Positions 3 through 10,188 of a DNA stretch of 34,293 nucleotides are shown in pieces. The notes below the pieces were generated by a model. It ran no database searches. It was given only the letters and a program-made list of their open reading frames with translations, and had not been told where the DNA came from. Made by a program: the position numbers and the translations under genes. The stretch is from the NCBI GenBank assembly GCA_024280095.1, contig JAJRQU010000116.1:1-34293 (forward strand), in the 5' to 3' direction. Every line of letters begins with the position of its first letter. The first letter of the stretch is position 1. Source of the DNA: Alphaproteobacteria bacterium. GTDB lineage: Bacteria > Pseudomonadota > Alphaproteobacteria > Sphingomonadales > Emcibacteraceae.

Positions 3-314
3 ATTACATTGGAGGGTGGACGGTATGTGAGAGTCTTTGCAATAAGCAATCAGATATTTCTTGCGCCAATATTAATGTATTTAATTTCTTATCCTTTGGA
101 TGCTGATGGAAATCAAATAACAGCTTTTCAAAATGTACGGCCTGTATTTGGGGGGCATATTCTTCCGATCGTTGGAAATACATATGATTTTGTTGAATCA
201 GGTGATAGAAATTATCAGCATGTATTGATTGTAAGGCCACAGACTAATGCGTCTGGCGCAGACATTAATGCTAATATAACGTTAGAGGTAAGAAATTGTC
301 CTTTCATCGGCTAA
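3..314 (+). CDS. hypothetical protein, 5' end outside the window
   Basis: The frame is open from the first in-frame codon of the window to a TAA at 312-314, so the true start may lie upstream; the first possible in-window start is a TTG at 9. About 100 residues are visible. I do not recognise the family. The protein has a hydrophobic stretch near the visible N-terminus (IFLAPILMYLI), then a polar part with no obvious catalytic motif and one Cys near the C-terminus. Base composition is clearly more AT-rich than the tail genes beginning at 2419. It overlaps the next gene, which suggests co-translation. Together with that gene it forms a pair ending in the terminator near 1062. It is probably accessory cargo in the tail gene cluster rather than a core tail gene; that is inference from composition and position. 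Confidence 0.5.
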   Translation: MTLEGGRYVRVFAISNQIFLAPILMYLISYPLDADGNQITAFQNVRPVFGGHILPIVGNTYDFVESGDRNYQHVLIVRPQTNASGADINANITLEVRNCPFIG

Positions 315-931
315 TGATCATATTATCATTTATGATATTATCCATTTCGGCAAGTCATGCTGCTACCATTGGAAGTCTTTACCATATAATATTTAACTGG
401 AAAGCTGAACAAAGAGCTTCCGCATACTATGAAATGACCACCTATATTTTTGACTCCATGAGCAAGGAACCGGCCTATCTATATTCTAAACATGGTAATT
501 TAAGTGGTGTCTATATATGGGTTCCTGGAAATAGCTCCTACGCTAAATTGGAAAGAATTATTTCCAATGCAAATAGCCAATATATTATTCCGGTAATTGA
601 TGATAATTCGACTCTGAAAACACGATTGGATAAAATATTTCTTGATATTGATAGCGGGCAAACAACTTTTACCTGTCATGTCGTAATGCCAGTGGAGTTT
701 AATTCTGTTGATGAAGTAATGAAGTATCTCACAAAAATACAATATTATATCCTTAGAAGGGGTTATTTAATTTCCATGACATTCATTGGAAAAACAGAGA
801 AAAAGTTTGATATAAGTTTTAATTTCCTTGCTGATTGTATATCAAGGAAAGCAATTGTGAGCGATTTGTTACATATTGTCTCTCTTGATCACAAGGATCA
901 GCGGAAATTATATTCACCTCATCAGAAATGA
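296..931 (+). CDS. hypothetical exported protein
   Basis: A 211-residue protein beginning with a likely Sec signal peptide: a short n-region with Arg (MSFHR), a hydrophobic core and SASHA-A as a plausible signal peptidase I site near residue 22. I chose the TTG at 296 because AGAGG lies seven bases upstream and this start supplies the charged n-region. The alternative ATG at 314 overlaps the previous stop as TAATG but leaves a signal without positive charge. The mature part is rich in Ile, Tyr, Asn and Ser with two Cys; I do not recognise a family. The 19-base overlap with the preceding gene implies translational coupling. Strongly AT-rich, unlike the tail genes downstream, which points to recent acquisition. 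An exported protein next to phage-type tail genes fits a moron-type cargo gene, but no function can be assigned. Confidence 0.55.
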   Translation: MSFHRLMIILSFMILSISASHAATIGSLYHIIFNWKAEQRASAYYEMTTYIFDSMSKEPAYLYSKHGNLSGVYIWVPGNSSYAKLERIISNANSQYIIPVIDDNSTLKTRLDKIFLDIDSGQTTFTCHVVMPVEFNSVDEVMKYLTKIQYYILRRGYLISMTFIGKTEKKFDISFNFLADCISRKAIVSDLLHIVSLDHKDQRKLYSPHQK

Positions 932-1061
932 ACAAGACATCCGTTACCAAATTTGTTCCTATGGTATTATGCCTCTTGGTTAAAGTGGCTGGTGGCATTT
1001 GAATGAATCACAAGAATTAAAAATATTATCAGAGATTAAATACGCCAACATAACTTGAACG

Positions 1062-1089
1062 AACCCGCCCTCTCCCGGCGGGTTTTTTA
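1062..1089 (+). terminator. intrinsic terminator of the first cargo pair
   Basis: An inverted repeat AACCCGCC / GGCGGGTT (1062-1069 and 1077-1084) with a seven-base loop is followed by six T. This is a textbook rho-independent terminator for transcription reading rightward from the gene pair ending at 931. It sits only about 13 bases before the ATG of the truncated tape-measure stub. Confidence 0.85.
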
Positions 1090-1101
1090 TGGGAAAAGAT
1101 T

Positions 1102-1152
1102 ATGACAGAAACAGTTATAGATAGTCTGGTCGTGAAGATCAGGACTGAATAG
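1102..1152 (+). pseudogene. truncated tape-measure gene stub (16 codons)
   Basis: The frame from ATG 1102 reads MTETVIDSLVVKIRTE and then stops at TAG 1150-1152. Fifteen of the 16 residues match the N-terminus of the intact tape-measure protein starting at 2419; the difference is Thr for Ala at position 15. Homology continues faintly past the stop to about 1168 and then ends. It is the remnant left when new DNA was placed between the start and the body of a tape-measure gene, or when a second gene start was brought in with the cassette. The rest of the interval 932-1221 holds the terminator and nothing else I can identify. Confidence 0.8.
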
Positions 1153-1221
1153 TGCCGGATTTTGCGGTCTTCCAATTGCCACAATATCAATTATACTACT
1201 TAACTAAAGGGGAAATTACCA

Positions 1222-1866
1222 ATGTATGATCAGAATCATAGACCCGCCCGAACCCAGTTGAGCCATTACCTGAGGACGGGCAGAGTATTACCCGCTGAGC
1301 TTTTTACGAGTCAGAAATCAAGCCCGCTGGATAATGGCGAGGATGATTTCTTGTCTTATAAAAGCTGGACAACACGTGATTTTCTGGATCATTATGCGAC
1401 AGGAAATGGGCGAACTGTTAATTTGGCAAATATCGGGCTGTTGGATAGATTTCGAAATACCAGTTCTGTAAGAAGAGCAGTTGAAAGTTTTAAAGCTGAA
1501 CAAATAAGTTTAGCAAAACAAAAAGCTGTTGCTGTTTGCCGCAAATTAGAGCGAACGGAGGCCACAAAAACGCAGGTTATATTTTCTGATCGAGATAGGA
1601 CAACAACTAATGTTACACAGGATGGACCTCTCCTTTCGGTAGGGGGTTCTACCTTTATTCGTTCTGCACAATGTGCCCTAGATGTAGATTGTGTTAATAA
1701 AACTTTTCGTCTTGAAGGGTTTTTGAAATTTAGCATTGACGATAAGTTTGTGGATGCCATTGATTTTTTCAATCAAATTCCAGGAAATCAAGACTTGCCT
1801 TTCTCGAAACCGTATAAAATAATAGCAAATTGGAGTGAAACATTTAACTGGAGGGGGCAATTCTGA
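1222..1866 (+). CDS. hypothetical protein, cargo pair 2, first gene
   Basis: A 214-residue protein of unrecognised family. The ATG at 1222 is preceded by AAGGGGA at good spacing. The N-terminal half is hydrophilic, with a stretch rich in basic and Ala residues (about 83-118). The C-terminal third is more structured: a three-Cys pattern (C106, C151, C157), then alternating hydrophobic residues GFLKFSIDDKF, DFFNQIPGNQ and a C-terminal PYKIIANWSETF. No signal peptide is visible. It is followed after two bases by a multi-pass membrane protein, and the pair ends in its own terminator at 2382. A soluble protein coupled to a small membrane protein is the arrangement seen in some toxin-immunity pairs; this is only a hypothesis, as I see no known toxin motif. 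AT-rich compared with the tail genes. Confidence 0.6.
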   Translation: MYDQNHRPARTQLSHYLRTGRVLPAELFTSQKSSPLDNGEDDFLSYKSWTTRDFLDHYATGNGRTVNLANIGLLDRFRNTSSVRRAVESFKAEQISLAKQKAVAVCRKLERTEATKTQVIFSDRDRTTTNVTQDGPLLSVGGSTFIRSAQCALDVDCVNKTFRLEGFLKFSIDDKFVDAIDFFNQIPGNQDLPFSKPYKIIANWSETFNWRGQF

Positions 1867-1868
1867 AA

Positions 1869-2345
1869 GTGCAGCAGAATATTGATAACGGATACAGATG
1901 GCGAATTTATGAGAAATTTTTTTTGGGATTGGCATCAGCCCTAGGGTGGATTCCAGTAGCCGGAGTAATTTTTATGGTTATAATAATGTATTTGTCCACT
2001 GTGTTTCCCTCGACATTTCCTCTTATTGAGGTATTATTGTGTATTTATGTTATTCTTTTCGGGGGTTTAGCTTATTATTTCCCTAAAGTTTATATTTTAC
2101 CTGCATGGACATTAAATCTTCTCTCTTTTTTTCTCGGTATGCTAAAAATTGCTACCTTTGTTTTATTTTATAATAATACAGATAAATTTTATTATTTTGC
2201 ATCGGGAGAATCCCGTTATCACAGTTTTTTGCCTCTAGATGTTTATCTGACTGTTCTTGAACTTGTTTTCCTGATCATACTGTATCGTCCGGCCCTGTTT
2301 CATGTCCGGTTTCTCTGGGGAAAACTAAAAAAATTCTATAGCTGA
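1869..2345 (+). CDS. small multi-pass membrane protein, cargo pair 2, second gene
   Basis: A 158-residue protein with about four hydrophobic segments (near residues 16-43, 50-67, 75-97 and 119-138) and a basic C-terminal end (GKLKKFYS), so it is very probably an inner-membrane protein. The start is a GTG at 1869, two bases after the preceding stop. A strong GGAGGGGG lies at 1850-1857 inside the end of that gene, so the two are likely translationally coupled. I do not recognise a family. Base composition is among the most AT-rich of the coding regions in the window. It could be an immunity protein for the upstream product, a superinfection-exclusion protein, or unrelated cargo; the sequence does not decide. 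Confidence 0.6.
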   Translation: MQQNIDNGYRWRIYEKFFLGLASALGWIPVAGVIFMVIIMYLSTVFPSTFPLIEVLLCIYVILFGGLAYYFPKVYILPAWTLNLLSFFLGMLKIATFVLFYNNTDKFYYFASGESRYHSFLPLDVYLTVLELVFLIILYRPALFHVRFLWGKLKKFYS

Positions 2346-2353
2346 AAGATAAA

Positions 2354-2478
2354 TCATTAATCTTCGACATTACTTGAACTGACCCGCCGCGCCGGCGGGT
2401 TTTTTATTGGAAAAAATTATGACAGAAACAGTGATTGACAGTCTGGTTGTGAAAATCAGGGCTGAGAGTGCGGATTTG
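2354..2478 (+). repeat. diverged direct repeat, copy B (terminator plus intact tape-measure start)
   Basis: Partner of 1034-1168. It carries the same order of elements, but here the tape-measure reading frame continues for its full length. The two copies bracket cargo pair 2 (1222-2345), so that cassette plus one repeat unit is about 1.32 kb. Edges are approximate. Confidence 0.8.
2382..2405 (+). terminator. intrinsic terminator of cargo pair 2
   Basis: Inverted repeat ACCCGCC / GGCGGGT (2382-2388 and 2394-2400) with a five-base loop, followed by a run of six T (2400-2405). It ends 13 bases before the tape-measure ATG at 2419. A strong terminator at this place would block transcription of the tail genes from upstream, unless read through or bypassed by a promoter I cannot identify. 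Confidence 0.85.
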
Positions 2479-2994
2479 CGCGGACAATTGGCTGAGATAG
2501 AAAAAGATTTTGGCGGGCTTGAGGATGTGGCGGCGCGAACGGCCGACGGCATGACGCGGGTCTTTGAAAATTTCGCCCGCAGCGGAGAGCTTAATTTCTC
2601 AAGTCTGAAGCAAGTGGCTTTATCGGTACTGAATGACATCGCCAATAGTGCCGTCCAGTCTGGCCTGAACAGTATTTTCGGACAGGGCGGCGGCATTGGC
2701 GGTGCAATTGGCAATATAGCTGGAGCATTGTTTGGCCGGGCCGGCGGCGGCACGGTTGGCGCGCGCCAGCCCTATCTGGTGGGCGAAAGGGGCCCGGAGT
2801 TATTCGTGCCGGAAAACCCGGGCCGAATTATCCCAAATCAGGGTGTGAAGAGCGAGAGGACTTCAGACAAAATGACCAATATTACCATCAATATTACCAA
2901 TCAGGGCGGGGCCAATGACATGTCACGGCGCAGTGCGGGCCAAGTCGCCGTGGCCGTTCGCCGCGCTATGGGCCGCGCCGAAAGGGATTTATAA
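2419..2994 (+). CDS. GTA-type phage tail tape-measure protein (RcGTA g11-like)
   Basis: A short 191-residue tape-measure protein of the gene-transfer-agent type, close to the roughly 220 residues usual for that family and far shorter than those of true long-tailed phages. The N-terminal half is helical and charged. Then follow a Gly-rich segment (FGQGGGIGGAIGNIAGALFGRAGGG) and the family hallmark YLVGERGPELFVPENPGRIIPNQ near residues 120-142. I prefer ATG 2419 over the in-frame TTG at 2407, because the stub copy upstream keeps the same ATG and no matching TTG codon. The stop overlaps the next start as TAATG. Position directly before the DUF2460 and DUF2163 genes matches RcGTA gene order. It would line the inside of the tail tube and help set its length. 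Confidence 0.88.
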   Translation: MTETVIDSLVVKIRAESADLRGQLAEIEKDFGGLEDVAARTADGMTRVFENFARSGELNFSSLKQVALSVLNDIANSAVQSGLNSIFGQGGGIGGAIGNIAGALFGRAGGGTVGARQPYLVGERGPELFVPENPGRIIPNQGVKSERTSDKMTNITINITNQGGANDMSRRSAGQVAVAVRRAMGRAERDL

Positions 2995-5342
2995 TGTATT
3001 GGCTGGCAACACAGGAAGATCAGGCGCAAATCAGTTATATCCGCAGATTTTCGCCCCGCTACTGGACCGTTAATTTCCCTCGTCCCATGATGGCCTCTAT
3101 GGTGACGACCGGCTATGACAGTCTGGTCATTGACCTTGTATTTTACCGTTATGAGGATTTATGCGGCCTCATATGGGATACGGTGGACACTATTGACCAT
3201 CCCTTTCATCAATATGCAACCAACAGGGATTATGCCCATAGCGTGCTGAGTTTTCGTTGGCAGTCCGTCAATGTCAAGGCGCTGGATATTTTACATAGCC
3301 CCACATTGACCATAGAGGGCCGGGATCAGAATGGCCTTGCGCGCACATGGTATGTCCGCCTGTGGAATTATGCCGTGGGCAGCAATCAGAATGCCATTAT
3401 TACGCTGAATTTTGATGATCTTGCCGGCGGGTATCTGCACCCGCTAGAGGCAGACCCCGTATATCCAAAAGATATTGACCGGATGTTTATCAGTATGGTG
3501 CCAACTGCTTTTGACGGTACAACCACAGGCCCCTTGCCCAGCGCCGTCGACGCGCAGGTCACCATTTCCGAGATAAAAGTTACCGGCCCCACATCGACTT
3601 TGAAAGTTGGGGACAGTTATGTTCAGAGCCATGACCTGCGCATTGCCAATGGGTATGATGATGTCACATCGATGGCCCCGGAACGGGTGGTCTGGAATAT
3701 GATACGTCTGGGCTATAGCGGCTGGATCAACCATTATGTGGGGATGAGCCATTATTATAGTTTGAGCTGGGACGGGGCAGAAGGTCGGTTCATCATTGAT
3801 ACCACCAAAGAAAAATTAAACAAAGCGGCCATCAGCTGGCATAAAAACTTTCTGGAACTGGCGAATTATTTTGGCTTTAAAGTTATATTTTCGTTGTCCT
3901 ATGAGGTTTTCGCAGAAAACATCCCCGAAATCTGGCAGCAGAAAGCCCATGATGGCGCGCCCGCCCGAACCGGATGGGTGCCGCCGTCCGGCTTGATTGC
4001 TCCGACCAATCAGGCGGCCCTTGATTATTTGCGGGATGTTTTTCTGGCATTCGGGCAGATCATAGACCTTGTTGGCGCGGATCATTATTATCAGGTCGGC
4101 GAGCCTTGGTGGTGGATTGATGAGGGCGGGGAAGGCGTGCCGCATATTTATGATGATGTGACCACGGCGCTTTATACGACAGAAACCACCAAGGCTGTGC
4201 CGCCCAGACATCTTTTGGCCACTGAAATTGCCACGCCGGATCAACAGGATTATTTAAACTGGCTTAGGGATAAACTGGGTCAATCAACCATTTGGTTAAA
4301 AGATCAGGTGAAAGCGCAACACCCCTCGGCTAACGTGGGGCTTTTGTTCTTCACGCCGCAAGTGTTGCATGATAATGCCCCCATTGCGGGTGTTGTTAAT
4401 TTTCCGTCATCTTATTGGCGATGGCCTGCTTTTGATTTCCTGCAGGTGGAAGATTATGATTTTGTCCTGAATGGGGAATGGGGAAAACGCAAAGCCGCGA
4501 TTGATATTATTGATCAAACATTATCCTATCCCCGGGCAGAAACCCATTATTTTGGTGGTTTTAACCTATTGCCGGAAACGTTGGAGAATTGGCGCAATAT
4601 CATCAGGGCCGTGGGCCTCGGGTTTCAGGATAATTACGCGGAGACTTTTGTCTGGGCCTATCCGCAAATTGTACGGGATGGGGTGATTTATACCAATAAT
4701 CAGGAAAAAATTATGACAGGTTTTCACGAAGTAAGGCTGCCGGAAGACATCAGTTACGGTGCAAGCGGCGGGCCGCAGTTTATGACAAATGTGATTGAGA
4801 TGGCCTCAGGCCACGAGCAGCGCAATCAGGAATGGGCACAGGCCCGAAATGTTTATGATGTGGGTCTGGGCCTCAGGTCGGAAAATGACTTAGGCGAATT
4901 AATCGGTTTCTTTCGGGCACGGGCCGGCCGGGCCTTTGGTTTCCGTTATAAGGACTGGCTAGATTTTAAAAGCTGCGCCCCGATGGAGATCATTACAGCA
5001 ACGGATCAATCCATCGGGGCCGCAGATGGGGTCACGACCACATTCCAATTGAAAAAAACATATGACAGCGGGGGAAATCTGCACAGGCGAAATATTTCCA
5101 AACCAGTAGTGGGAACGGTGCTTATTGCCGTTGATGGCGCGCCCCAGACCACAGGTTGGCAGGTGGATGTAACAAATGGCGTTGTGATTTTTGAGGTCGC
5201 CCCCTTGAACGGGGCGGTGATTACGGCGGGATATGAATTTGATGTGCCCGTGCGTTTTTCTGATGATTTCCTGCCGATAATATTAGAAAGCTATCAGGCC
5301 GGACAAATTCCGTCAATTTCTTTAATTGAGGTAAGGGTCTAA
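2994..5342 (+). CDS. TIM-barrel-like protein fused to DUF2460 distal-tail domain (RcGTA g12-like C-terminus)
   Basis: A 782-residue protein, where the distal-tail family (DUF2460, TIGR02217) is normally about 210. The family part is residues 574-782: FHEVRLPEDISYG, SGHEQRNQEWAQARNVYDVG, FFRARAGRAFGFRYKDWLDF and the C-terminal SISLIEVRV. Residues 1 to about 190 are beta-rich. Residues about 200-570 look like a glycoside-hydrolase-like TIM barrel, with SWHKNFLELANYFGFKVIFSLSYE, a GEP motif (Glu370) within HYYQVGEPWWW, and a second acidic strand end near Glu486 (LQVEDYDF). The spacing of these two Glu would suit a clan-A hydrolase, but activity is unproven. Phage tail proteins called non-contractile tail sheaths have a similar TIM-barrel build; that comparison is from memory. 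An internal ATG with its own ribosome binding site lies exactly at the domain junction. Confidence 0.8.
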   Translation: MYWLATQEDQAQISYIRRFSPRYWTVNFPRPMMASMVTTGYDSLVIDLVFYRYEDLCGLIWDTVDTIDHPFHQYATNRDYAHSVLSFRWQSVNVKALDILHSPTLTIEGRDQNGLARTWYVRLWNYAVGSNQNAIITLNFDDLAGGYLHPLEADPVYPKDIDRMFISMVPTAFDGTTTGPLPSAVDAQVTISEIKVTGPTSTLKVGDSYVQSHDLRIANGYDDVTSMAPERVVWNMIRLGYSGWINHYVGMSHYYSLSWDGAEGRFIIDTTKEKLNKAAISWHKNFLELANYFGFKVIFSLSYEVFAENIPEIWQQKAHDGAPARTGWVPPSGLIAPTNQAALDYLRDVFLAFGQIIDLVGADHYYQVGEPWWWIDEGGEGVPHIYDDVTTALYTTETTKAVPPRHLLATEIATPDQQDYLNWLRDKLGQSTIWLKDQVKAQHPSANVGLLFFTPQVLHDNAPIAGVVNFPSSYWRWPAFDFLQVEDYDFVLNGEWGKRKAAIDIIDQTLSYPRAETHYFGGFNLLPETLENWRNIIRAVGLGFQDNYAETFVWAYPQIVRDGVIYTNNQEKIMTGFHEVRLPEDISYGASGGPQFMTNVIEMASGHEQRNQEWAQARNVYDVGLGLRSENDLGELIGFFRARAGRAFGFRYKDWLDFKSCAPMEIITATDQSIGAADGVTTTFQLKKTYDSGGNLHRRNISKPVVGTVLIAVDGAPQTTGWQVDVTNGVVIFEVAPLNGAVITAGYEFDVPVRFSDDFLPIILESYQAGQIPSISLIEVRV
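4703..4715 (+). promoter_or_regulatory. internal ribosome binding site and start codon at the fusion junction
   Basis: AGGA (4702-4705) lies seven bases before ATG 4713, in frame with the 782-residue protein. Starting there gives 209 residues, the usual length of a stand-alone DUF2460 protein. The 17-mer ggaaaaaattatgacag at 4703-4719 is identical to 2409-2425 around the tape-measure start. It may be a relic of the original gene start or allow a second, short product. Confidence 0.5.
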
Positions 5343-6185
5343 ATGAAACAAATTTCTCCGCAATTGAAAAACCATATTTCAGGCGAACTTACGACAATGG
5401 TGACCTGCTGGATATTAACGCGGCGGGACGGCGTGCGGCTGGCGTTTACCACCCATGACAGAGAAATCTATTTTGATAATCTTGCCTTCTCGCCGGTTAA
5501 TAGCTTTTTGCCCTCTATGGTGAGCAGTACCAACAGTTTAAATGTGGATAATCTGGAAGTGCAAGCGATATTATCTTCGGATGGCCTGACAGAAAAAGAT
5601 ATTCGCGCCGGATTGTTGGATCATGCCCGCATTTCAATTTTTCAGGTTAACTGGCAGGATTTGAGCATGGGGAAAATCTCTATCCGTCATGGCTGGCTCG
5701 GGGAATTCACATTGAAGGATCAAAATTTTACCGTTGAAATCAGAGGGTTGGCGCAAAAATTACAACAGGTAATCGGCCATCTATATTCGCCCGAATGCCG
5801 CGCGGATTTGGGGGCGGATAATTGTCATGTGAATATGGAAAAATATACGGCCCTCGGCAGCGTAACAGAGGTTCTGGGCCGAGATAGTTTTACGGATGTG
5901 AATAGGCTGGAGGCGAGTGGATGGTATGATTATGGCTATGTCCGCTGGCTTCGGGGCGGCAATGCCGGCATCATGTCAGAAGTAAAAACTTTTACCGGAG
6001 GGCAGTTTATATTATATGACCGCCCGCTGGAATCTATCATGGTTGGGGATCAATTCCTTGCCGTTGCCGGCTGCGATAAACGGTCGGGAACCTGTAAAAG
6101 TAAATTCCAGAATTTTGAAAACTTTAAAGGCGAGATAGCCATACCCGGGACAGACGCCCTCTATAACTATCCCGGCCTTAAATGA
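5343..6185 (+). CDS. DUF2163 tail hub protein (RcGTA g13-like)
   Basis: A 280-residue protein of the DUF2163/TIGR02218 family, full length. The start follows the previous stop directly, with GAGG and AAGGG just upstream. The C-terminal signature is complete: CDKRSGTCKSKFQNFENFKG followed by IPGTDALYNYPG. Four cysteines (C152, C161, C244, C251) are placed as expected for the iron-sulfur-binding site known for the lambda gpL-type and GTA hub proteins. The product would sit at the tail tip, joining the distal tail ring to the peptidase and the large tip protein. Nothing is missing; the odd point is that the next tail gene (6912) is separated from it by a reverse-strand gene. Confidence 0.9.
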   Translation: MKQISPQLKNHISGELTTMVTCWILTRRDGVRLAFTTHDREIYFDNLAFSPVNSFLPSMVSSTNSLNVDNLEVQAILSSDGLTEKDIRAGLLDHARISIFQVNWQDLSMGKISIRHGWLGEFTLKDQNFTVEIRGLAQKLQQVIGHLYSPECRADLGADNCHVNMEKYTALGSVTEVLGRDSFTDVNRLEASGWYDYGYVRWLRGGNAGIMSEVKTFTGGQFILYDRPLESIMVGDQFLAVAGCDKRSGTCKSKFQNFENFKGEIAIPGTDALYNYPGLK

Positions 6186-6190
6186 GGGAA

Positions 6191-6853
6191 TTATTTTTTA
6201 GCGGCTGGTTTTTTTGTCGTCTTTTTTACAGCCGATTTCTTAGCCCCAGTTTTCTTTGGGCTTGTTTTCTTTGCATCTGGCTTTTCTTTGGCTTTTTCTT
6301 TTGGGGCGGGTTCTTCTTTCCATTGGTCAGGATATAGGCGCATATGAACCTGATTCACCCGGTTGTTCACATCAGCCAACGCTTTTAGCAGGGCATCAAG
6401 ATTAAAACTTGTGCCAAGATAGGTATATATTTTCGTGGCTGTATCAAAGGCCCGGAAAATATTTTTTGATTCAACGTCTTTATGCTGACTCTTGGATATA
6501 TCGCCAATGAAGTCATAGAGGATATATTGATCTTTGGACTGGTTGATCCATTGATCATTGGCTTCATCAGCATGGTCAACGAGTGACAGGATACTGTCAT
6601 TATTCAATGGATATTTCTCTGGCAGGTCAAGGGTTTTCCGTAAGGATGCCGCGCGTTCTTTGCCTTTTTTACGCGGCGTCCAGAGTGTGCGGGAAATATT
6701 ATTTGTCCCAAGCATGATATTTTGCAAGCCAAAGAAAACCCCGACAGAGGCCTGCTTTTCCATTGATTGGTTTAAAATATCCACACTTGCCTCAATAAAG
6801 CGGCATTGATTTCTTAATTCGTGAATATGCAATCCGATAACATTCATGTCCAT
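6191..6853 (-). CDS. hypothetical protein with histone-H1-like Lys/Ala-rich tail
   Basis: A 220-residue protein on the strand opposite to the surrounding tail genes, inserted between the hub and peptidase genes. I chose the start at 6853 (MDMNVIGLHIHELRN) because AGAGGAA lies about 10 bases upstream; the longer frame to 6919 has no ribosome binding site and would overlap the peptidase start. Residues 1 to about 175 look helical and are unrecognised. The last 40 or so are a low-complexity tail of Lys, Ala, Pro and Thr (KKTSPKKTGAKKSAVKKTTK) like the C-terminus of histone H1 and bacterial H1-like nucleoid proteins. This suggests binding to DNA or another polyanion. Its stop lies five bases from the hub gene stop, a tail-to-tail arrangement. 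It is AT-rich relative to its neighbours, which suggests insertion. Function unknown. Confidence 0.7.
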   Translation of the reverse strand: MDMNVIGLHIHELRNQCRFIEASVDILNQSMEKQASVGVFFGLQNIMLGTNNISRTLWTPRKKGKERAASLRKTLDLPEKYPLNNDSILSLVDHADEANDQWINQSKDQYILYDFIGDISKSQHKDVESKNIFRAFDTATKIYTYLGTSFNLDALLKALADVNNRVNQVHMRLYPDQWKEEPAPKEKAKEKPDAKKTSPKKTGAKKSAVKKTTKKPAAKK

Positions 6854-6911
6854 AGCAGGCAATTCCTCTATTTTATTTTCTGTTGAATACTGATAGCAAA
6901 GTTTTTTTGAA

Positions 6912-7343
6912 ATGACCATATGCGATCTGCATCAAAAAAAGATAATTTCAATAGCACGAAGCTGCGTTGGCAAATCTTTCCGTCACCAAGGGCGTAACCC
7001 AGAGGATGGTTTAGATTGCATAGGCTTGATTGTCTATGTGGCAAAAGCCATTGGGCTTACGGGGTTTGATCATAAAGACTATAAAAAAATACCTGAAAAA
7101 TTCGCAATTTCCCGCCAGGCAACAGCCGCCGGCTTTAGGCGTTGCCCAAGAAATGACCTGACGCCGGGTAATGTGTTAATCCTGAAGTTTGGTAAATATC
7201 TGGAACATGCTGCCATCATATCGGACCGGGGCATTATTCATGCTTGTGAGAAATACGGCAAGGTGGTTGAGCATGGATTAGACGATGTTTGGCGGTCTAG
7301 AATAATCTCGGTTCATGCCTTCCCCCAAACATTTATCCCCTAA
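6912..7343 (+). CDS. NlpC/P60-type tail peptidase (RcGTA g14-like)
   Basis: A 143-residue protein of usual length for the GTA cell-wall peptidase. The catalytic pattern is visible: DGLDCIGLI with Cys36 as nucleophile, and His99 in LEHAAIISDRGIIHA, with His110 close by. Such proteins at the tail tip cut peptidoglycan so that DNA can enter the target cell. The neighbourhood (DUF2163 hub upstream, large tip protein downstream) is the RcGTA order. I see no good ribosome binding site before ATG 6912, so translation may be weak or the start could be different. The reverse-strand gene ends its 5' region just upstream, so this gene and that one are divergent across about 58 bases, which may hold promoters for both. 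Confidence 0.85.
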   Translation: MTICDLHQKKIISIARSCVGKSFRHQGRNPEDGLDCIGLIVYVAKAIGLTGFDHKDYKKIPEKFAISRQATAAGFRRCPRNDLTPGNVLILKFGKYLEHAAIISDRGIIHACEKYGKVVEHGLDDVWRSRIISVHAFPQTFIP

Positions 7344-7388
7344 CCTTAATTTCACAAGACCTTTCACTAAAAATATAGGAATGAAATA

Positions 7389-9659
7389 ATGGCAACTGTT
7401 GTACTTACTGTCGTTGGGACAGCCATTGGCGGGCCCATTGGCGGCTTTGTCGGTGGCCTGATCGGTCAACGTGTGGATCAAGCCATTTTCGGGGGCACAA
7501 GTTCCCGAACAATTGAGGGCGGGCGGATGAAAGACCTTACCGTTCAAACGTCTTCTTATGGGGAGCCTATTGTCCGCGTTTATGGCACCCTGCGACTTCC
7601 GGGCAACGTGATCTGGTCTTCGGGTTTGAAAGAGGTTCGAAATGAGAAAACAGAAAGTAGCGGCGGCAAAGGCCGTAGGCAAAATGTTACGACGGTTGAA
7701 TATAGTTATCGTGCGTCATTCGCCGTGGCTCTTTCCGGGCGCGCGATTTCGGATGTGGGCCGCGTCTGGGCAGATGGCAAGCTGTTGCGGGATGCCGCAG
7801 GTAAAATAGCCGTCGGCGGGGAAATGAGAGTTTATCGGGGGGAAGGCTTTCAGAAATCAGACCCAATGATTGAAGCTCTTGAAGGTCAAAATAATGTTAA
7901 TGGGTTTACGAACCTGTCTTATGTGGTGTTTGAGGATTTAGCGTTAGGTGAATATGCCAACCGTATTCCTAATCTGACCTTTGAAGTCATTGGGGATACT
8001 GGTGGGGACACTGGTGGGGAAATTCTACTTTCCACTATTGTTTCTGATATCTGCCAACTTTCAGATGTAGCTGTCTTTGATGTCGGTGACCTGAACCAGA
8101 TGGTTGGCGGCTATTTGGTTGCGGGACCTATGAAATCCAGAGCTGCCATAGAAGAGCTGGCGCGGGTTTATCAATTTGATGTGGTAGAACAGGAAAATGG
8201 CCTGCTGTTCCGAAAATTGGGGCGACTGTCAGAGGCGGCGATACTTGCGGATGATTTAGTCCAATCTGCACAAGGGGCGCGGCCCTCGGATAAGGTAATA
8301 ATAACGCGCCAGCAGGATATGGAGCTTCCCCGGGAAATCGGCTTGTCGTATATTGATCCCAGCCGGGATTATCAAACCGGATATCAAAGAGCCCGGCGAT
8401 TAAATGTGGCGAGTGATATTGTCCGTCAAAGCGGTTTGCCATTGGTATTATCATCAAGTCAGGCAAAAACCGCCTCCGAAATACAACTTGATCTTGCCTG
8501 GTATGGACGGGAAACAATAAATTTTGCCTTGCCCCATAAATATGATGATCTTTTGCCCGGGGATATTGTGACGATGGCCTCTGGGTCAGAAACGCAGGAT
8601 TATTTGCTACAGGAAACAGAAATCGGCCCGGAGGGGGTGCAATGTCAGGCGGTGAAGTTTTCTAACCTTCGTCTGGACAGGTCTGCGTTAGCGGATAGTG
8701 GCCCTGTGCCAGCGCAACAAGTGGAGGAACTGGCAGAAAGTCTGTTTTTCCACCTTGATATGCCGGCCATAACGGGCGAGAATGTAACGTCGCCTGTTTT
8801 TTTCTGGGCTGCCGCCGCAGGAGCAGGCAAATGGCCTGGTGCTGGCCTGTTTATATCAAGGGATAATGATCAAACATATTCGCAACTGGATTATACAAAT
8901 GCAGATGCCATTAGCGGTATAGTTGAAAATATACTGCCTGATGGGCCGGTCGCCTATTGGGACTATGGCAATGAACTATTGGTTCGGTTGGATAATCCGG
9001 ATCATGGGCTGCCTAGCGCGGCATTGGAGGCTGTTTTGGACGGGGCCAATATCGCTTGGGTTGGCGGAGAGATTATCCAGTTTCAACAGGCGACTTTTGA
9101 GTTGGGTGGTTTCTATCGATTGACTGGACTGCTTAGGGGACGGCGAGGAACTGAAAGATATATAAGTCAGCATAGCATTTCAGAAACTTTTATTTTGCTG
9201 AACCGCGCAACGGTAAATACCGCTGTAATGTATCATTCTGATATTGGGCTTATTCACCATTTCAAGGTTGTGACAGCAGGGGCAGATGTTGAAGATGCGC
9301 CTTCGGTAAGCCGCGCTTATGGTGCTGCCGTTTTGAAGCCTTTTTCGCCTGTGCATGGAAAGGGGCAGCGGGACGGCGCAGGGACACTTGCGTTGACCTG
9401 GATCAGGCGTAGCCGAGTGGGCGGGGATTGGATGGATAATGCCGATGTCCCGCTCGGTGAAAATTTTGAAAGATATGATATTGAAATTTTAAATGGCGGC
9501 GCGGTGGTTCGAACTTTGACCAGCGATGTTTCCGAAGTCATTTATCCAGCATCATCTCAGATTGAGGATTTTGGTGCCACGCAGGCAATTCTGGATATTC
9601 GTATCTTCCAAATCAGTGACAACATTGGCCGTGGCTGGCCGCTGATATTGTCCGTTTAA
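7389..9659 (+). CDS. phage tail tip protein (short RcGTA g15-like, no TIM barrel seen)
   Basis: A 756-residue protein corresponding to the last large tail gene of GTA clusters. It begins with a Gly-rich hydrophobic stretch (GGPIGGFVGGLIG), then YGEPIVRVYGTLRLPGNVIW, a region like the phage tail 3 family (about 210-430), and LTGLLRGRRGTE near residue 580, a motif shared by this group. The RcGTA counterpart is about 1,300 residues and contains a GTA TIM-barrel domain; I see none here, which accounts for the shorter length. A TIM-barrel-like region is instead found in the 2994-5342 product. AGGA lies eight bases before ATG 7389. A 12-base in-frame tandem repeat at 7995-8018 encodes DTGG twice. 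Role: tail tip and host contact. Confidence 0.82.
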   Translation: MATVVLTVVGTAIGGPIGGFVGGLIGQRVDQAIFGGTSSRTIEGGRMKDLTVQTSSYGEPIVRVYGTLRLPGNVIWSSGLKEVRNEKTESSGGKGRRQNVTTVEYSYRASFAVALSGRAISDVGRVWADGKLLRDAAGKIAVGGEMRVYRGEGFQKSDPMIEALEGQNNVNGFTNLSYVVFEDLALGEYANRIPNLTFEVIGDTGGDTGGEILLSTIVSDICQLSDVAVFDVGDLNQMVGGYLVAGPMKSRAAIEELARVYQFDVVEQENGLLFRKLGRLSEAAILADDLVQSAQGARPSDKVIITRQQDMELPREIGLSYIDPSRDYQTGYQRARRLNVASDIVRQSGLPLVLSSSQAKTASEIQLDLAWYGRETINFALPHKYDDLLPGDIVTMASGSETQDYLLQETEIGPEGVQCQAVKFSNLRLDRSALADSGPVPAQQVEELAESLFFHLDMPAITGENVTSPVFFWAAAAGAGKWPGAGLFISRDNDQTYSQLDYTNADAISGIVENILPDGPVAYWDYGNELLVRLDNPDHGLPSAALEAVLDGANIAWVGGEIIQFQQATFELGGFYRLTGLLRGRRGTERYISQHSISETFILLNRATVNTAVMYHSDIGLIHHFKVVTAGADVEDAPSVSRAYGAAVLKPFSPVHGKGQRDGAGTLALTWIRRSRVGGDWMDNADVPLGENFERYDIEILNGGAVVRTLTSDVSEVIYPASSQIEDFGATQAILDIRIFQISDNIGRGWPLILSV

Positions 9660-9687
9660 ATATATAGTCTTAAAAAGGAATTCTGAA

Positions 9688-10188
9688 ATGGTTAATCAAA
9701 CGCCGCGACTTATGACGCCCTATATTATTTCTACGCAGTCCCAGAAAGAGGTCACCCATAATATGGCCTTGAATATACTTGATGCTTTGGTGCAAACGGC
9801 GGTGGAGACGGCCACCTTAGTCAGTCCGCCGATGTCCCCTCTCGTGGGTGGTTTATGGCTTGTGGCGAGTGTAGCCACTGGTGATTGGCTGGGCCATGAT
9901 GGGAAGATTGCCCAATATATCGGCGGCGCTTGGCAATTTCACGCCCCTTTTGAAGGCCTGCAGGTTTGGCTGAAAGATGATGAAGTTACGGCCCAATTTC
10001 GGTCTGGTTTGTGGCAAACAGGGATCGTTACAGTGCAAAAGCTTGAGGTTTCAGGTCAACAGGTTGTCGGCCCGCAGCAGCCTGCCGTTGGCGATGCGGC
10101 GGCGGGTGCTGTCATAGATGTGGAGGCGCGAACAGCCCTGAATAATCTGCTTGCAGCTTGCCGAAACCATGGGCTGATCGCGTCTTGA
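9688..10188 (+). CDS. DUF2793 family tail-associated protein
   Basis: A 166-residue protein. The N-terminal part is the DUF2793 pattern (LMTPYIISTQSQKEVTHNMALNILDALVQ), followed by repeated short beta motifs ending in Trp (GGLWLVAS, GDWLGHDGKIAQYIGGAWQFHAP, GLQVWLKDDE, SGLWQ). It ends in a helical tail (ALNNLLAACRNHGLIAS). AAGGA precedes ATG 9688 at good spacing. The family is commonly found directly after GTA or phage tail-tip genes and has been linked with fibre or receptor-binding functions; that role is inferred from position. It is the last gene of the tail block; the next gene is on the other strand, eleven bases away. Confidence 0.8.
   Translation: MVNQTPRLMTPYIISTQSQKEVTHNMALNILDALVQTAVETATLVSPPMSPLVGGLWLVASVATGDWLGHDGKIAQYIGGAWQFHAPFEGLQVWLKDDEVTAQFRSGLWQTGIVTVQKLEVSGQQVVGPQQPAVGDAAAGAVIDVEARTALNNLLAACRNHGLIAS

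Follow-up and report, generated by a model that had tools for sequence, protein, structure and literature searches.

What process leaves a broken copy of the start of a tape-measure gene, with the terminator that precedes it, between two pairs of AT-rich genes in front of the intact gene? The arrangement lies at the left end of contig JAJRQU010000116.1 (assembly GCA_024280095.1), a stretch of 34,293 nucleotides, here called the window, from an alphaproteobacterium of the family Emcibacteraceae. The genes wA and wB are followed by a terminator and a 16-codon stub of the tape-measure gene (TMP), and the genes wC and wD by a second terminator and TMP itself, which opens the tail half of an RcGTA-like gene transfer agent (GTA) cluster (Table 1). 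Comparison with related genomes suggests that exchangeable toxin-immunity cassettes have a hot spot just before TMP and that the stub is a scar; we consider this reading probable, at roughly 0.74.

The direct repeat, comprising the terminator and the TMP start, spans 115 nt at 83.5% identity (E 7.6e-28), with a core of 74 nt at 89% (1075-1148 and 2392-2465). The assembly comprises 2.63 Mb in 221 contigs and is 85% complete; a search of it with positions 1041-1190 returned only these two places, the other 14 matches listed having E values above 2. Both terminator hairpins are more stable than 200 of 200 shuffled sequences, and a simple pattern scan for terminators picked up the second copy only. 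Over the 16 codons the stub differs from its own TMP at 7 nt, which alter six codons synonymously and one non-synonymously. The GC content is 0.33-0.40 in the two gene pairs and 0.55 in TMP. A preliminary description of the window had reported the repeat, the AT-rich genes between its copies and the mostly synonymous differences, and all three are borne out. The 16-codon reading frame that it named is present as well, but its end is a frameshift and not a junction: the stop arises from a single base inserted after codon 16. Weak similarity to TMP runs on past this stop in the alignment, which excludes codon 16 as the point of recombination. The TMP-like sequence passes into the wC leader (about 1169-1197) near an AATTG that is common to the TMP start and the leader. 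This right junction does not resemble a homologous crossover within TMP, which speaks against the earlier proposal of recombination through the shared TMP start.

Could the repeat be an assembly artefact, two strain versions of the interval joined in one metagenome-assembled genome (MAG)? The number of contigs and a contig start inside wA would fit such an error. It is nevertheless very improbable, as a separate assembly (G011) has the same stub-then-leader architecture, and the stub, besides a frameshift of its own, is identical to none of the 18 TMP starts compared.

To place the window among its relatives, we sought TMP in 60 genomes. The gene is carried by 12 of the 15 other genus members (stop-broken in G014), which with the window genome (G000) gives 13; G001, G002 and G003 (62-74% complete) yielded no such gene, with a distant match only in G002. 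We defined the interval as the sequence between a small upstream gene (97 aa in most genomes) and TMP. It is empty in G004, G005 and G013, and in G010 nothing but a short piece of an immunity gene is left there (E 0.013). Nine of the 13 genomes (G000, G006, G007, G008, G009, G011, G012, G014 and G015) have cassette genes in it, intact or in decay. Relatives of wC occur in 5/12 genus relatives with TMP, at E 1e-12 or better, and the other seven give no match; the gene is stop-broken in G004 and a fragment in G015. In G007 a wC gene has been lost but its leader is retained, and a 29 aa piece in G009 may be what is left of wC (E 0.011). The wC/wD pair of G004 sits in a different gap, 5' of the major tail gene; after it, 50 nt from the end of the preceding gene are repeated (76%, E 0.001). 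Outside the genus, the small gene was found in G016, G017, G018 and G051, where it lies 62-146 nt before TMP and therefore leaves no room for a cassette.

A second cassette type is present in G007, G008, G009 and G014. One of its genes lies in reverse and has Sel1 repeats, as Pfam showed for the G008 copy; the other reads forward and encodes about 181 aa, or 126 aa in G007. The reverse gene also occurs in G012, together with a remnant of the forward gene. In their N-terminal parts, wC and the 181 aa protein have a YLR.G motif in common; we aligned it and found it too short to claim a relationship.

The terminator belongs to TMP rather than to the cassette. In 9/13 genus genomes, including G004, G005 and G013 with their empty interval, and in three of five genomes outside the genus (G016, G018 and G051), the 80 nt 5' of TMP contain a perfect hairpin with a T-run. 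The strict search passed over G006, G007 and G009, which have imperfect hairpins in the alignment, and the G010 sequence has none. Positive genomes are thus the window genome, G004, G005, G008, G011-G015, two other genera of the family (G016 and G018) and another family (G051). Since sites without a cassette also have it, the terminator is native to TMP, and we rejected a cassette that brings its own. The duplicated terminator of the preliminary description stands as a pair of well-folding hairpins, but not as part of the cassette. An anti-terminator allows read-through of an internal terminator in the CcGTA cluster, according to the excerpted text of PMC11150451; by analogy, the kept terminator before TMP may point to anti-termination control of this cluster. 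It would also separate cassette transcripts from the tail genes.

Stacking of cassettes, raised in the preliminary description, is seen in two further genomes. The order in G011 is small gene, toxin, immunity gene, terminator, short TMP start, leader, C-terminal toxin fragment, second immunity gene, terminator and TMP. Its toxin fragment and the immunity gene after it are similar to the first pair of G012 (47.6% over 63 aa and 60% over 124 aa, respectively). One G012 contig has this first pair, with a broken toxin gene, directly after the small gene; another has a second pair, a toxin remnant and a copy of the 3' end of the small gene. The G012 order was inferred from the first immunity gene, which runs off one contig and whose later part is on the other. 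The comparison of intervals thus yields relatives without a cassette, with other cassettes and, in G011, with a second stub. The window and G011 both likely have a newcomer 5' of the stub and an older unit 3' of it. Their junctions reach the leader at an almost identical point and may represent one old event or two.

Which pair of the window arrived last? The pair between the repeat copies had been taken for the incoming cassette. Relatives of wC exist in the five genomes above and those of wA and wB in none of the 15 other genus genomes, which makes wC/wD the probable older resident; the upstream pair wA/wB is more likely the arriving unit. The tblastn comparison of wA/wB with wC/wD showed no similarity, and the best Pfam match of wB is under the cut-off (E 0.056). 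As a guess from position, wA is a possible toxin and wB a possible exported immunity protein. The contig begins inside wA, so that the gene 5' of it is out of view.

What do the cassettes encode? From sequence, wC is probably a polymorphic toxin and wD its predicted immunity protein. The wD gene starts with GTG 2 nt past the wC stop, a layout similar to that in G004, G006, G011 and G012. Simple hydropathy predicts two to four membrane segments in wD and its five counterparts. The wC leader is related to those in G004, G007, G011 and G012, and was not listed by a consensus promoter scan. Over three genome pairs, identity falls from 78-82% in TMP to 65-71% in the toxin N-terminus, 40-52% in the toxin C-terminus and 28-30% in the immunity protein, the last range being also that of wD against its G011 and G012 counterparts. 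Comparison of G000 with G004 and G006 gives 53% for the immunity protein, against 77 and 74% for TMP. Divergence that rises from TMP through toxin to immunity gene fits the pattern of a polymorphic toxin with its immunity gene.

Domain searches with wC gave few assignments. It has no Pfam or NCBIfam match, and the lack of a Phage_Mu_F match in Pfam sets it apart from MuF toxins. Its one PHROG match is phrog_31798, of unknown function (E 1e-9), in which residues 50-207 align to the C-terminal part of a 406-position profile. Rhs_assc_core has no match in G000. Sequence similarity to colicin M-like chains was sought in PDB with profile A1 and a limit of E 10, and the one match was a U14 protein (E 0.092); colicin M chains are presumably present in PDB.

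The domain recurs on other carriers. Residues 49-214 or so of wC match in 3/385 genomes of the class (its own, G375 and G112) and 4/398 of the phylum (its own, G705, G543 and G461), and whole wC finds eight of the 60 genomes (its own, five genus members, G033 and G017), the G017 match being 32% over residues 120-212 (E 2.7e-10). The wC-type domain follows Phage_Mu_F in G375 and G112, and also PG_binding_1 in G375. Six paralogous immunity-like genes come after the MuF-type toxin of G112 (L072:7027-10657), five of them 39-87% identical to the first; five of the six have one predicted N-terminal membrane segment. The domain in G543 and G461 precedes small genes that appear lipoprotein-like by eye. 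These arrays look like Rhs orphan modules, through an NNP..TDP.G motif that we take to be an Rhs mark; the core model has no match there. Plasmid records hold one distant wC match, on a Xenorhabdus plasmid, and none to the G375 domain. Scans of viral contigs with wC, A2 and one relative gave no match, and a TMP scan gave one distant locus. Among phage records, neither wC nor the Xenorhabdus relative has a match; 145 match the G112 protein, the 20 listed ones through its N-terminal and MuF part.

Several points weigh against the hot-spot reading. The N-terminus of wC has no known delivery domain in Pfam, NCBIfam or PHROG. Its AlphaFold2 model, built from three sequences, is poor (predicted local distance difference test, pLDDT, 54), and Foldseek found no match in PDB and BFVD at E ≤0.001. 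The toxin C-termini of the genus are still homologous, so that wC shows no complete exchange of its toxin domain, and fast evolution of AT-rich genes could explain part of the divergence gradient. wA and wB have no relatives found, and their role is assigned by position only. Finally, the whole repeat is nearest to its own copy, with 36/139 differences against 38/136 for G007 and 38/137 for G009.

This nearness favours an old local tandem duplication, in which unequal crossing-over within one lineage doubled the unit of toxin gene, immunity gene, terminator and TMP start without foreign DNA, and the upstream unit later diverged or was replaced. The gene end copied beside the G004 cassette points the same way, and in the part 5' of the ATG the first repeat is closer to its own copy, to G011 and to G004 than to G007. 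The 48 nt coding part, however, differs from the G007 TMP at 3 positions, from that of G009 at 5 and from its own at 7, and the discordant sites within it favour G007 by five to none. The 6:1 excess of synonymous codons is what two TMP alleles would show; across 16 codons it is also compatible with an old local duplication. The dissimilarity of wA/wB and wC/wD, and the different kinds of cassette in relatives, speak against a local origin. We regard a local duplication as possible, though the less probable account; the sequence signals on import from a related strain against old duplication conflict.

Two other explanations concern the function of wC/wD. The pair might not be an intercellular weapon but an addiction (toxin-antitoxin) module that holds the GTA cluster in the chromosome, from which an immobile, vertically kept cluster would benefit; the lack of a known delivery domain fits this. 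It is unlikely, given that the partner wD would span the membrane several times and that the G543 and G461 partners look like lipoproteins, as for immunity to a toxin from outside. The MuF and PG-binding carriers of related domains, and the 3/13 genomes without a cassette at the interval, also oppose it, though G004 has the pair elsewhere in its cluster. Alternatively, wC/wD might be accessory proteins of the particle's tail or its assembly, encoded by a moron whose role is structural or in exclusion, as their position between tail genes and the phrog_31798 match would allow. We think this more doubtful still: wC is unmatched in seven of the 12 relatives and broken or a fragment in two more (G004 and G015), and the related domain lies outside the GTA cluster in G112, G375 and G033.

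Table 1. Features at the left end of the window and in the adjoining tail genes.
Feature	Position	Strand	Basis
wA, 3' part of AT-rich gene, 5' end past contig start	3..314	+	Open reading frame (ORF) open at left; no Pfam match
wB, ATG overlaps wA stop (TAATG)	314..931	+	N-terminal hydrophobic stretch (hydropathy)
Duplicated segment: pre-terminator, terminator, TMP start	1048..1162	+	115 nt, 83.5% to 2367-2477
Intrinsic terminator, first copy	1062..1090	+	Fold -13.5 kcal/mol, z -3.3
TMP stub, MTETVIDSLVVKIRTE*	1102..1152	+	Cut by one-base insertion
wC leader, putative promoter, CTTCCAATTGCC...TTATACT	1169..1197	+	Alignment of 7 leaders
wC, probable polymorphic toxin	1222..1866	+	About 50 aa genus-specific N-terminus and shared domain
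wD, membrane protein, probable wC immunity protein	1869..2345	+	About 4 predicted transmembrane segments (hydropathy)
Intact counterpart of duplicated segment	2367..2477	+	Repeat alignment, genome search
Intrinsic terminator, second (native TMP) copy	2381..2407	+	Fold -16.2 kcal/mol, z -3.8; pattern scan
Tape-measure gene (TMP)	2419..2994	+	PF09718; RcGTA_tape well under its cut-off, E 4.6e-8
Remaining tail part: NCTSP/DUF2460, hub, NlpC/P60, Rcc01698-like, DUF2793	2994..10188	+	Pfam

The setting is that of a resident GTA cluster, whose tail half fills positions 2419-10188 of the window (contig C156 of the MAG) according to Pfam. The head half is visible in G013, with portal, HK97 protease, HK97 capsid and connector genes; a tail tube gene is present there too. 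NCBIfam gave no match for four of the ten G013 proteins tested, among them the ORF at the terminase position, and RcGTA_tape stayed below its cut-off. Genes for SCP2, a metallo-hydrolase, a histidine kinase and the Tad pilus follow the cluster on its 3' side. The same downstream flank is found in the three relatives compared (G009, G013 and G010), where the identity of the cluster declines in parallel with that of the flank; two ORFs of the TadE region have no match in G013. This fits vertical inheritance of an RcGTA-like cluster at a fixed chromosomal place, its GTA type being judged from its genes, and agrees with the GTA-type assignment made at the outset.

Three side observations were made in the cluster. 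A minus-strand ORF of 242 aa without a Pfam match lies at 6191-6919, between the hub and NlpC/P60 genes; it is kept in G009, G013 and G010 (96, 77 and 81% over 74-83% of its length) and is better conserved in G010 than the structural genes are. Three AT-rich genes (GC 0.32-0.37) stand 9.0-10.4 kb upstream of TMP in G011 (L049), 5' of the prohead protease gene, and are possibly another cargo site. The gene in the capsid-connector slot varies in N-terminus and length, from 528 aa in G013 (L044:5202-6785; no Pfam match) to 476 aa in G012 (L074:4606-6036), and possibly encodes a variable surface protein.

Under the hot-spot reading, a typical cassette would begin with a conserved leader, the putative promoter, continue with the genes for toxin and immunity protein and close with the terminator of TMP. 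A new cassette would enter on DNA of a related cluster. Its left end would recombine in common upstream sequence or a common upstream gene, and its right end, with the donor terminator and TMP start, would join just 5' of the resident leader at the short AATTG; the junction itself is seen. The resident would be retained, or decay until only an orphan immunity gene is left, and the TMP start of the donor would persist as a decaying stub. The likely newcomer in the window is wA/wB and the likely resident wC/wD. The wC product would hit competitors most likely from the periplasm or the membrane side, and wD would shield producers and kin. Release of wC might occur through GTA-linked lysis or on the particle itself.

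CDI (contact-dependent inhibition) and Rhs orphan modules are familiar comparisons among polymorphic toxins. The cassettes share with polymorphic toxin systems, as the excerpted text of Zhang 2012 (PMC3482391) describes them, an immunity gene placed after the toxin gene, rapid divergence in the direction of immunity, fragments of toxin genes with extra immunity genes (G011, G012 and G015; the six paralogues of G112) and a domain found on other carriers. Unlike those systems, wC/wD lies within a GTA-like structural cluster and is bordered by TMP stubs, and the short wC N-terminus matches no known delivery domain. The MuF toxins of temperate phages, described in Jamet 2017 (PMC5576092), a paper in which the term 'gene transfer agent' is not used, have a similar link to a phage-type particle, and wC-domain relatives sit on Phage_Mu_F. 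Here, by contrast, the genes belong to no temperate phage but to a GTA-like cluster with a fixed place, and wC has no MuF match. Phage morons are AT-rich, variable genes between structural genes. The cassettes resemble them in AT-richness and variable presence among structural genes, but differ in that the terminator is native to TMP and that units stack with TMP stubs; the leader is conserved, and the consensus scan lists no promoter in it.

The cluster has capsid, tail, hub and peptidase genes like RcGTA and CcGTA, and its capsid and tail genes, judged from the window and G013, agree with the RcGTA type in set and order; the internal terminator is 5' of TMP here and after the first gene in CcGTA, in the excerpted text of PMC11150451. 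Among the GTA papers listed in literature searches, titles and the visible parts of abstracts contained no report of a toxin-immunity slot in a GTA cluster. To our knowledge, RcGTA and CcGTA have no toxin-immunity pairs.

The retention of GTAs is an old puzzle, as producers die and particles seldom move their own genes. We tentatively suggest, at well below even odds, that the GTA particles made in this genus carry antibacterial toxins of an exchangeable kind, or are set free along with them, and that recipients survive only with the matching immunity; this would amount to kin discrimination, with immunity alleles exchanged as GTA-sized DNA at the hot spot. Cassette turnover leaves a clear record, in that arrival can leave a stub of the next gene. 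If true, a toxin-immunity slot links GTA release to competition and to the choice of kin as recipients, and suggests a possible further use of GTA particles, or of the cell lysis that releases them, in fighting or sorting neighbours.
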